The notes beneath the pieces are model-generated. The model was given only the letters and a program-made list of their open reading frames with translations, had not been told where the DNA came from and did not search any database. This document shows, one piece after another, positions 1,049-37,638 of a stretch of 44,485 nucleotides of DNA (the stretch's first letter is position 1; each line of letters starts with the position of its first letter). The stretch is from Candidatus Levybacteria bacterium RIFCSPHIGHO2_01_FULL_36_15 (GTDB taxonomy: Bacteria > Patescibacteriota > Microgenomatia > Levybacterales > GWA1-39-11): positions 1-44,485 of the forward strand of contig MFNJ01000003.1 of assembly GCA_001782015.1 (NCBI GenBank). The letters are read 5' to 3'. The translations under genes and the position numbers were made by a program.

Positions 1049-1077
1049 TTGCGAAAAAGAAGTAATCTTGGTAAAAT
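1049..1077 (+). promoter_or_regulatory. Leaderless sigma-70-type promoter of rplU
   Basis: A -35 hexamer TTGCGA (1049-1054) and a -10 hexamer TAAAAT (1072-1077) are separated by exactly 17 nt. Seven nucleotides later comes the ATG of rplU, so initiation is predicted at or next to the start codon. The ORF track's TTG start at 1049 is the -35 box itself. Confidence 0.65.
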
Positions 1078-1084
1078 ACTATGT

Positions 1085-1438
1085 ATGAATTATGCAGTTG
1101 TACAAACCGGTGGTAAACAATACAAAGTTGGAAAAGGGACAATTCTTGAAGTTGATAACTTAAATAAAGATTCCCAGGAACTTATTTCTTTTGACAAAGT
1201 TCTTCTTTATGTTAATGAGGGAAAAGTTAATATTGGCCTACCCTTTATAAACAATGTGAAGGTTTTGGCAAAGGTGGAGGGAAATTTTAAATCCAAAAAG
1301 ATAACAGTAGCAAAATTTCGCGCTAAATCAAGATACAGAAGACTTGCCGGTTTCAGAAGGACTTATACGAAAGTTGTGGTAGAGGATATTAAGGAGGAAA
1401 AGCCTTCCGCAGCTGAAGATAAGAAGAAGAAAGTCTAA
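1085..1438 (+). CDS. rplU: 50S ribosomal protein L21
   Basis: This is a large-subunit ribosomal protein that binds 23S rRNA. The 117-aa product begins MNYAVVQTGGKQYKV, the conserved L21 N-terminus, and contains the basic KSRYRRLAGFRR segment typical of the family near its end, followed by a lysine/glutamate-rich tail (KEEKPSAAEDKKKKV). I start it at the ATG at 1085 rather than the tracked TTG at 1049, because the extra 12 residues have no family counterpart and overlap the promoter. There is no Shine-Dalgarno sequence before this ATG, consistent with a leaderless message. rpmA follows 22 bp downstream and is probably cotranscribed, the usual rplU-rpmA order. Confidence 0.95.
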   Translation: MNYAVVQTGGKQYKVGKGTILEVDNLNKDSQELISFDKVLLYVNEGKVNIGLPFINNVKVLAKVEGNFKSKKITVAKFRAKSRYRRLAGFRRTYTKVVVEDIKEEKPSAAEDKKKKV

Positions 1439-1446
1439 AAAATTAA

Positions 1447-1452
1447 AAGGAG
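1447..1452 (+). promoter_or_regulatory. Shine-Dalgarno site of rpmA
   Basis: AAGGAG lies 8 nt before the rpmA ATG. It is one of the few clear ribosome binding sites in the window, and it precedes an operon-internal gene rather than a first gene. Confidence 0.8.
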
Positions 1453-3145: not shown

Positions 3146-3174
3146 ATTTTCGAATATTTTGTTAATTTTGTCAA
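3146..3174 (-). promoter_or_regulatory. lepB promoter, leaderless-type
   Basis: On the minus strand TTGACA (3174-3169), a 17-nt spacer and GAAAAT (3151-3146) lead into the ATG at 3138 after 7 nt. The -35 is near consensus and the -10 is weaker. An alternative pair, TTGACT-17-TTTACT, lies further upstream. Confidence 0.5.
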
Positions 3175-3215: not shown

Positions 3216-3287
3216 GCACGCATAGCTCAGTGGTAGAGCGCTTCGTTCACATCGAAGAAGTCTCTGGTTCGAATCCAGATGCGTGCA
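3216..3287 (+). tRNA. tRNA-Val (CAC anticodon)
   Basis: A full cloverleaf of 72 nt can be drawn by hand. The acceptor stem is GCACGCA with TGCGTGC (7 bp), the D-arm GCTC/GAGC, the anticodon stem CTTCG/CGAAG with loop TTCACAT giving anticodon CAC, the variable region AAGTC, and the T-arm TCTGG-TTCGAAT-CCAGA. The discriminator base is A. The following bases are CAA, so the CCA end is not encoded and must be added by a nucleotidyltransferase. The D-loop is short (7 nt). Confidence 0.95.
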
Positions 3288-3310
3288 CAAAAGTATACGG
3301 CATACAAGTA

Positions 3311-3344
3311 GAAGAAGTCAGAGGTTCAAATCCTCTCGAGTCCA
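3311..3344 (+). pseudogene. tRNA 3'-half remnant (variable region, T-arm, acceptor 3' strand)
   Basis: Directly after tRNA-Val the sequence has GAAGTC, a perfect T-arm AGAGG-TTCAAAT-CCTCT (3320-3336), then CGAGTCC and a discriminator-like A. This is the exact layout of a tRNA 3' half. The matching 5' acceptor strand GGACTCG is not found upstream, and no credible anticodon arm can be folded from the preceding 30 nt. I therefore read it as a decayed or recombined tRNA, not a functional one. Confidence 0.55.
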
Positions 3345-3357
3345 CATATTTAAATTT

Positions 3358-19634: not shown

Positions 19635-19640
19635 ATTATA
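19635..19640 (-). promoter_or_regulatory. -10 box, near-leaderless promoter of the methyltransferase at 18780
   Basis: On the minus strand a perfect TATAAT is followed by 6 nt (AAAGTA) and the ATG at 19628. No clear -35 is seen at 16-18 nt. Confidence 0.5.
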
Positions 19641-27599: not shown

Positions 27600-27629
27600 T
27601 TGTTTATTAAGATTTTTTTATGTTAAAAT
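27600..27629 (+). promoter_or_regulatory. Leaderless promoter of the epimerase gene at 27637
   Basis: TTGTTT (27600-27605), an 18-nt spacer and TAAAAT (27624-27629) are followed by 7 nt and the ATG. This places the transcription start on or beside the start codon. Confidence 0.6.
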
Positions 27630-27636
27630 CTTACCT

Positions 27637-28620
27637 ATGACAAGAGTTATTGTAACAGGGGGAGCAGGATTTATTGGCAAAGAGATTGTAAAAAAACTTC
27701 TTAAAAAAGGATACGAGGTTATAGTAGCAGATAATTTGAGTAAATCTAAATTTCATCAAAAAGAAGAGTTTATTCCAAAAGAAAAAAAAGGAAACTATCA
27801 ATTTCTAAATGCGGATTTAACAGATTCTAAATCAACTAATAAATTATTCAAAAAAATTGACGTTTGTATTAATCTGGCCGCAAAAATTGGAGGTATAGGC
27901 TATTTTCATAAAGTTCCAGGGGAAATTATTTCTGAAAATAACAAAATATACTCTTCCACTTTTGAGTCTGCGGCAAAAAATAATCTTAAACGGATGATTT
28001 TTGTATCTTCCTCAATGGTTTTTGAATCAGCTTCAAGTTTTCCTAGTAAAGAAAGCGATATAGGCAAAATGCCTCCTCCGTCAAGCGCGTATGGTTTCTC
28101 AAAGCTTACAGGGGAATATTATTGCAGGGCGTTTTGGGAGCAGTACAAGCTTCCTTACAGCATTTGCAGACCATTTAATGCTTATGGAATAAATGAATAT
28201 CTGGGAAAAGAGGTAGGGGATGCTCATGTAATTCCAGATATTGTTAATAAGATTTTAACGAAACAATATCCTCTGAAACTTTTAGGGGACGGAAATCAAA
28301 TCAGGTGTTTTACCCATGTCAGCGATTTAGCAGATGGGATTATTGCAGTAATGGAAAGCAGAAAAGCTATTAATGATGATTTTAACATTGCAGATCCTAC
28401 TCCAATTAAGATGGTGGATCTTGCAAGATTAATCTGGAAAATGATGGGAGTAAAAAGGCCGCTTACAATAAGATATGTTGAGGGATTTAAGTATGACGTA
28501 AAAGTTAGAATGCCTGATGTGTCAAAAACTCAAACATTAATCGGGTGGAGATCTAAAATAAAATTAAATGATGGGTTAATTGAGACAATAAATTGGTTAA
28601 AGAGTAACTCAAATGATTAG
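27637..28620 (+). CDS. NAD-dependent nucleotide-sugar epimerase/dehydratase
   Basis: An extended SDR of 327 aa. The Rossmann start VIVTGGAGFIGKEIVKKLL has GxxGxxG, with INLAAKIGGIGYF after it. A serine-rich strand FVSSSMVFE precedes YGFSK, the YxxxK catalytic pair, followed by CRPFNAYG. Members are UDP-glucose 4-epimerase-like or GDP-mannose/UDP-GlcNAc dehydratase-like, and the exact one is not clear. Its stop overlaps the start of the UDP-sugar dehydrogenase gene by 8 nt, so the two enzymes probably act in one pathway producing a uronic-acid or modified hexose donor. Confidence 0.88.
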   Translation: MTRVIVTGGAGFIGKEIVKKLLKKGYEVIVADNLSKSKFHQKEEFIPKEKKGNYQFLNADLTDSKSTNKLFKKIDVCINLAAKIGGIGYFHKVPGEIISENNKIYSSTFESAAKNNLKRMIFVSSSMVFESASSFPSKESDIGKMPPPSSAYGFSKLTGEYYCRAFWEQYKLPYSICRPFNAYGINEYLGKEVGDAHVIPDIVNKILTKQYPLKLLGDGNQIRCFTHVSDLADGIIAVMESRKAINDDFNIADPTPIKMVDLARLIWKMMGVKRPLTIRYVEGFKYDVKVRMPDVSKTQTLIGWRSKIKLNDGLIETINWLKSNSND

Positions 28621-31280: not shown

Positions 31281-31309
31281 ATTTTACCAGTAATATTCTT
31301 CCAGCGCAA
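31281..31309 (-). promoter_or_regulatory. Leaderless promoter of the DPM1-like gene
   Basis: On the minus strand TTGCGC (31309-31304), a 17-nt spacer and TAAAAT (31286-31281) are followed by 7 nt to the ATG at 31273. The geometry is identical to rplU, and the ORF track's TTG start is the -35. Confidence 0.65.
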
Positions 31310-36829: not shown

Positions 36830-36835
36830 TAAAAT
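36830..36835 (+). promoter_or_regulatory. -10 box of the WaaE-like gene (near-leaderless)
   Basis: TAAAAT is followed by 8 nt and the ATG at 36844. No strong -35 is seen at 17-18 nt. The position matches the leaderless pattern of other first genes here. Confidence 0.45.
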
Positions 36836-36843
36836 AATTCAGC

Positions 36844-37638
36844 ATGCAACATGCTCATATGTTAGGTGTAGTCATTTTAACTAAAAATGAGGAGAATAAT
36901 ATAATTGACTGTTTGGAAAGCGTTAGTTTTGCGGATGAAATAATTATTGTTGACGATTTTTCTTCAGACAGAACATTGGACATTATAAGAGACTTAAAAA
37001 ATAAGAAAATTCATGTTTATAAAAGAAAATTGGATAATGATTTTTCTTCACAGAGAAATTTTGGCATTTCTAAGGCAAAAGGCGAATGGATCTTATTTGT
37101 TGATGCTGATGAAAGAGTGAGTGAACAGTTGGGTGGAGAAATACTTAGTGTACTCAGCAACAAGAATTTAGACAATGTGGGATTTTATATTAAGAGATCT
37201 GATGTTATATGGGGTGAGAAGTTGAAACATGGAGAAAGCGGTAATATTCAACTCTTAAGACTTGCAAAAAAGGGTTCAGGATCCTGGGCAGGGAAAGTGC
37301 ATGAAACCTGGAAAATAGATGGAGAAAAATTAAGTTTAAACAATGAATTAGTTCACTTTCCTCATAAAAATGAAAGGACTTTTTTAAAGGAAATAAACTA
37401 CTACACAACTTTACGCGCTGAAGAATTATACAGTCACAATATAAAAACAAATGCTTTTTCAATAATTATTTATCCGGTCGGCAAATTTATCTATAATTTT
37501 ATTATTAATTTTGGTTTTTTAGATAAGATGCCGGGTTTTGTTTTTGCGGTTAATATGAGCTTCCATTCTTTTCTAGTCAGAGGCAAACTGTGGCTTTTAT
37601 GGAAAAAAAGAATAAAAAAACTGTTTTTGGGATACTAA
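36844..37638 (+). CDS. WaaE/KdtX-like family 2 glycosyltransferase
   Basis: A 264-aa GT2 enzyme resembling lipopolysaccharide core beta-1,4-glucosyltransferase (WaaE) and related surface-glycan enzymes. It has LGVVILTKNEENNIIDCLES, IIIVDDFSSDRT, SSQRNFGISKAKGEWILF, FVDADERVSEQL (DxD-type) and the later SWAGKVHETW motif of this subgroup. The C-terminal part is partly hydrophobic. The first ATG (36844) matches the predicted transcription start, with an ATG five codons later as an alternative. It overlaps the following GT-C gene by 40 nt, so the pair is coupled. The acceptor is unknown. Confidence 0.87.
   Translation: MQHAHMLGVVILTKNEENNIIDCLESVSFADEIIIVDDFSSDRTLDIIRDLKNKKIHVYKRKLDNDFSSQRNFGISKAKGEWILFVDADERVSEQLGGEILSVLSNKNLDNVGFYIKRSDVIWGEKLKHGESGNIQLLRLAKKGSGSWAGKVHETWKIDGEKLSLNNELVHFPHKNERTFLKEINYYTTLRAEELYSHNIKTNAFSIIIYPVGKFIYNFIINFGFLDKMPGFVFAVNMSFHSFLVRGKLWLLWKKRIKKLFLGY

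Follow-up and report, generated by a model that had tools for sequence, protein, structure and literature searches.

Promoter boxes and start codons in the window

The DNA analysed, hereafter the window, is the whole 44,485-nucleotide contig C3 of a Candidatus Levybacteria genome (the host, G000), a metagenome-assembled genome (MAG) of 1.37 Mb in 60 contigs, with approximately 35% GC and 91.7% completeness. Pfam supports the assignment of genes in the window to bL21, bL27, ParB, signal peptidase S26, family-2 glycosyltransferase (GT2) and epimerase. A base-by-base check bore out the promoter geometry that the earlier note had described for several of these genes: at rplU, the GT2 (DPM1-like) gene and lepB a -35 box, a 17-nt spacer, a -10 box and 7 nt lead to the ATG (TTGCGA-17-TAAAAT-7-ATG in rplU), the epimerase gene at 27637 has an 18-nt spacer (TTGTTT-18-TAAAAT-7-ATG), and the -10 boxes of genes 36844 and 19628 lie at the distances from the ATG that the note had given (Table 1). 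The internal gene rpmA carries the AAGGAG ascribed to it. Two of the starts have in-frame alternatives: lepB has a second ATG at 3147, which makes its start ambiguous between 3138 and 3147, and gene 36844 has another at 36859.

Table 1. Promoter boxes, start codons and ribosome-binding site read at genes of the window.
Feature	Position	Strand	Basis
rplU -35 box, TTGCGA	1049..1054	+	Read from sequence
rplU -10 box, TAAAAT, 7 nt 5' of ATG	1072..1077	+	Read from sequence
rplU (bL21) ORF; ATG is the predicted transcript 5' end	1085..1438	+	Pfam PF00829, 1.7e-28
rpmA (internal gene) Shine-Dalgarno, AAGGAG	1447..1452	+	Sequence; rpmA (bL27) by Pfam PF01016
lepB -35 box, TTGACA	3169..3174	-	Read from sequence
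lepB -10 box, GAAAAT, weak, 7 nt 5' of ATG 3138	3146..3151	-	Sequence
GT2/DPM1-like gene -35 box, TTGCGC	31304..31309	-	Sequence; Pfam PF00535
GT2/DPM1-like gene -10 box, TAAAAT, 7 nt 5' of ATG 31273	31281..31286	-	4.8 nats at -13, spacer 17
NAD epimerase gene 27637 -35 box, TTGTTT	27600..27605	+	Sequence; Pfam PF01370
NAD epimerase gene -10 box, TAAAAT, 7 nt 5' of ATG 27637	27624..27629	+	4.8 nats at -13, spacer 18
Gene 36844 -10-like box, TAAAAT, 8 nt 5' of ATG; -35 weak	36830..36835	+	Sequence
Methyltransferase gene 19628 -10 box, TATAAT, 6 nt 5' of ATG	19635..19640	-	3.1 nats at -12, spacer 16

The best named relative of the window's bL21 is that of a Levybacteria (Microgenomates) MAG, with 51% identity, which points to a place for the host in the Patescibacteria. 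The N-terminal Met of rplU is invariant across seven family members, and in six of the seven the gap between the -10 box and the ATG is 7-12 nt (minus-strand cases measured by hand), L098 being the exception; in the Levybacteria relative the gap is 8 nt.

Elsewhere in the window a tRNA-Val occupies 3216-3288, and directly behind it a stretch at 3297-3350 (agaagtcagaggttcaaatcctctcgagtccaca) resembles the 3' half of another tRNA. This stretch was not called by ARAGORN and is perhaps a tRNA remnant.

Position of promoters relative to start codons in the host genome

Gene starts throughout are the output of a home-made, hexamer-based ORF caller, which gave 1271 genes in the host (85.6% coding, 92% starting with ATG). 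Promoters were sought upstream of 598 first genes with a two-block EM search that had no position prior. The rplU gene missed this first-gene set by one base (a gap of 79 against a threshold of 80) and thus did not contribute training data. The motif recovered was TTGACA-17-TATAAT, with the 17-nt spacer in 64% of cases. Expected -10 sites numbered 31.3 at -12, 30.6 at -13, 21.6 at -14, 21.9 at -15 and 14.8 at -16, against 2.6 at -11 and about 3 per position further upstream; among sites scoring at least 4 nats there were 40 at -12 versus 4 at -11. Such a one-sided cliff at -11 is expected if the transcript must retain the start codon. Simple counts of TANNNT agree, with 15.8% of 556 first genes carrying it at -12 and 11.0% at -13, compared with approximately 4% elsewhere and with 5.7% and 4.3% at the same two positions in 370 internal genes. 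When the EM search was confined to -97 to -25 of the host first genes no promoter motif was recovered, so that promoters with long leaders may be few or weak.

Expected starts of the -35 box were 27.9 at -38, 21.9 at -37, 27.8 at -36 and 25.4 at -35, falling to 3.9 at -34; the four positions from -38 to -35 are used about equally, -36 among them. The earlier note had anticipated a sharp -10 peak at -13 and a sharp -35 peak at -36 once first-gene starts were aligned. The -10 peak is there, at -12/-13, but the -35 box is spread over -38 to -35.

The two boxes are coupled. Upstream of TANNNT boxes at -14 to -12, TTG was found 48 times at a 17-nt spacer, 21 times at 18 nt and 2-9 times at other spacers, and this coupling marks the box as a promoter rather than merely AT-rich sequence. 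It also bears on the idea that the AT-rich box acts in translation, as an S1 or unstructured site. Such signals have been discussed for genes without a Shine-Dalgarno (SD) sequence (PMC5397173), and A-rich stretches do precede internal genes of the host, but a translation element would need no -35 box 17 nt upstream and the internal genes lack the two-box signal; we regard this reading as highly improbable.

The arrangement can also be seen without gene calls, by scanning for TTGAC-18-TANNNT-d-ATG, where d is the distance from the -10 box to the ATG. The host has 16 matches at d=6, 17 at d=7 and about 3 at each other distance, which amounts to 33 at d=6-7; the control distances d=20-21 and d=3-4 have 5 and 3.

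Shuffled controls and a second genus

The host has approximately 35% GC and a TANNNT background of about 4% per position, so the fitting examples in the window might have been picked from boxes that AT-rich DNA produces by chance. Two-fold cross-validation with a site threshold of at least 5.5 nats gave 85 promoters at -18 to -12 in the host, against 2.4 in dinucleotide shuffles. A second genome, from another genus of the same family (G001, of which 1.0 Mb was used), gave 72 against 1.4. The EM search recovered the same motif there, with 31.6 expected -10 sites at -12, 19.4 at -13 and 20.4 at -14, and 2.3 at -11. Together with the coupling of the -35 box at 17 nt, this margin over the shuffles and the repetition of the positional peak refute chance, to which we give practically no weight.

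Internal genes rarely have a cross-validated near promoter (1.3% in the host, 1.7% in the second genome). Among 112 genes of rplU-centred loci in Bacillales, a small comparison set, TANNNT occurs in 0% at -15 to -12 and SD 5-mers in 61%. For 127 orthologous pairs both members are first genes in their Patescibacteria genomes, and near promoters were shared between them more often than expected (11/26 versus 18/101; odds ratio 3.4, p=0.016), while the promoter sequences of these pairs had themselves turned over.

Share of genes and Shine-Dalgarno usage

A strong two-box promoter at -18 to -12 was found for 83 of 286 divergent first genes, 70 of 312 other first genes and 15 of 350 internal genes of the host. 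Counted by the -10 box alone, at -17 to -12, the excess is 37% among divergent first genes and 29% among the others. The full two-box near promoter is found in about 23-26% of first genes, and the arrangement as such is present in only about 20-35% of them. Homologues of glyA, trxA, mreB, rnhB and tgt (named by eye from their N-termini) belong to the near-promoter set.

SD 5-mers precede 0.7% of near-promoter first genes in the host and 0.0% in the second genome, against 12.5% and 13.9% of other first genes; the low values are partly trivial since the -10 box occupies the same space. SD 4-mers before divergent first genes of the host are at background (10.1% versus 11.9% in the control). Internal genes of the host have SD 5-mers in 8.3% of cases, compared with 4.9% in a control window. 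Given this weak contrast, the AAGGAG of rpmA is an exception. The anti-SD CCTCC is intact at the 3' end of the 16S rRNA (GGATGGATCACCTCCTTT, G000:C2:12501-12518). Ribosomal protein S1 scored 139.6 bits in the host against a curated cut-off of 577 bits, below which 12 of 14 control genomes also fell.

These counts divide the proposal that first genes begin at the ATG without an SD while internal genes are SD-led: a class of first genes with a near promoter and no SD exists, but the internal genes are hardly SD-led. The proposal that the geometry is a genome-wide rule fails. In its strict form, with every first gene having its -35 box at exactly 36 nt and no SD and with SD-led internal genes, it draws on five or six genes of the window that fit loosely. 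Set against it are the even spread of the -35 box, the roughly 75% of first genes without a strong near promoter and the slight SD enrichment of internal genes, and it is very unlikely to be right. The distance is instead a distribution that breaks off sharply at -12 on the ATG side and trails off to about -18.

Two features of start-codon context were recorded alongside. In every gene class of the host and the second genome, 52-63% of starts have T directly before the ATG; the figure is 32% for intergenic ATGs and 29% for starts in Bacillales. A T at -1 might lengthen the pairing with the initiator tRNA. No initiator tRNA was found among the ARAGORN matches in the host, where the sole CAT tRNA has its first acceptor pair paired and resembles an elongator or Ile2 tRNA. 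Internal genes of the host are A-rich at -8 to -2 (50%) and at +4 to +15 (50%), and have little SD despite the intact anti-SD.

Distribution across Patescibacteria

The gene-call-free scan of 145 genomes of the phylum gave 813 matches at d=6-7 versus 406 at d=20-21, with 102 genomes up and 30 down. In ten genomes of the host's class besides the host, the 75 matches at d=6-7 compare with 24 at d=20-21 and with 19 at d=3-4 (hand-summed). The spread is patchy, with no excess in several families (f68, f24, f66). Outside the phylum, nine genomes, mainly of Bacillota, showed no excess in the same comparison (88 versus 83 matches), their density being about 2.4 matches per Mb compared with 24 in the host.

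An excess at d=3-4 was considered as a second geometry and rejected. Only 1 of 30 sampled d=3-4 ATGs, from five other genomes, opens an ORF of at least 60 aa, and the true starts lie downstream, often behind an SD. In families f27, f53 and f64 a false ATG of this kind follows the -10 box after 3-4 nt; in f27 and f53 the real starts are preceded by AGGAGG-type SD sites, which indicates that the mode of initiation differs by lineage. At L240, L250, L260, L265, L248, L253, L247 and L262 (f27, f53) the promoter is followed after 3-4 nt by an ORF-less ATG (often ATGT), in many cases with the true start further downstream at an AGGAGG-type site; this resembles an initial transcribed sequence that recurs in lineages using SD sites.

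These look-alikes are the cases for which it holds that starts were mis-called, the true ATGs being downstream and the promoters ordinary ones with leaders. Extending that explanation to the d=6-7 arrangement is very improbable: 28 of 30 sampled d=6-7 ATGs from six strong families (one of the host's class) open an ORF of 60 aa or longer, wrong starts would smear the peak rather than yield a cliff at -11, and the N-terminus of rplU is conserved.

Discussion

The reading that best fits these observations, and in which we have high confidence, is that part of the first genes would be transcribed by a sigma-70 polymerase into leaderless mRNAs or mRNAs with ultra-short leaders. A housekeeping sigma-70-type RNA polymerase would use ordinary TTGACA, 17 bp, TATAAT promoters that are pressed against the ORF, and the first nucleotide of the transcript would be the A of the ATG or lie one to about five nt ahead of it. 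The resulting mRNAs would have no leader or almost none and would lack an SD, and the ribosome would have to initiate on a 5'-terminal AUG. The promoter motif, its spacing, its placement with respect to the ATG, the cliff at -11 and the lack of an SD recur in a second genus, and the arrangement is found in several families; from these we infer where transcripts begin and how ribosomes are loaded.

A variant of this reading, not exclusive of it, holds that most transcripts start 1-6 nt 5' of the ATG and that strictly leaderless ones are a minority. The tail of -10 boxes out to -18 means that many transcripts would carry leaders of 1-6 nt: about half of the near sites have a -10 start at -14 to -18, and the rplU gaps of relatives are 8-12 nt. 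On the other side, in both genomes the highest individual bins are those at -12 and -13, directly followed by the cliff. We consider the variant possible but lean against it.

Leaderless expression is already known in bacteria, in Deinococcus and Actinobacteria. About a third of D. radiodurans genes have a TANNNT located 6-7 bp upstream of the ORF and no SD; leaderless mRNA is inferred there with the backing of RNA data and promoter assays, and a -35 box raises expression (PMC12340547). The host resembles this system in that its TANNNT peaks 6-7 nt before the start and its near-promoter genes have no SD, but it differs in showing a clear TTGACA -35 box at 17 bp, in being a member of the Patescibacteria with a genome of about 1.4 Mb, and in being known here from sequence alone. 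GeneMarkS-2 work predicts leaderless transcription in 21.6% of bacterial species and for up to 40% of transcripts (PMC9581028). The genomes so described resemble the host, with a promoter-like signal at part of the gene starts and an SD for few, but the leaderless clades named in that paper are Actinobacteria and Archaea; candidate phyla go unmentioned, and neither 'Candidatus' nor 'Patescibacteria' occurs in it (PMC9581028). Mycobacteria are likewise reported to translate a large share of genes from leaderless mRNA, on the basis of RNA-seq and ribosome profiling in place of the genomic evidence used for the host (PMC4633059).

We found no report of leaderless expression in Patescibacteria, the CPR or its groups in a literature search that was thin in subscription journals and preprints, and absence from the literature searched is not proof of novelty. 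As a tentative wider proposal, which we rate as possible but short of an even prospect, the Patescibacteria may be split by lineage between leaderless and SD-leader initiation. Some families, the host's among them, would keep the anti-SD but hardly use it, with first genes being leaderless and internal genes relying on a U at -1 and an A-rich context; this mode would be new for the phylum.

What is known of the Patescibacteria, a vast and mostly uncultured branch, comes from DNA alone. Should leaderless first genes be common among them, callers that are geared to the SD would place starts poorly, promoters could be read straight off genomes, and the customary leader and ribosome site should be left out of expression constructs for Patescibacteria. 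The promoter near the ATG also offers a clean sequence signature for tracing the change of initiation mode across the Patescibacteria.
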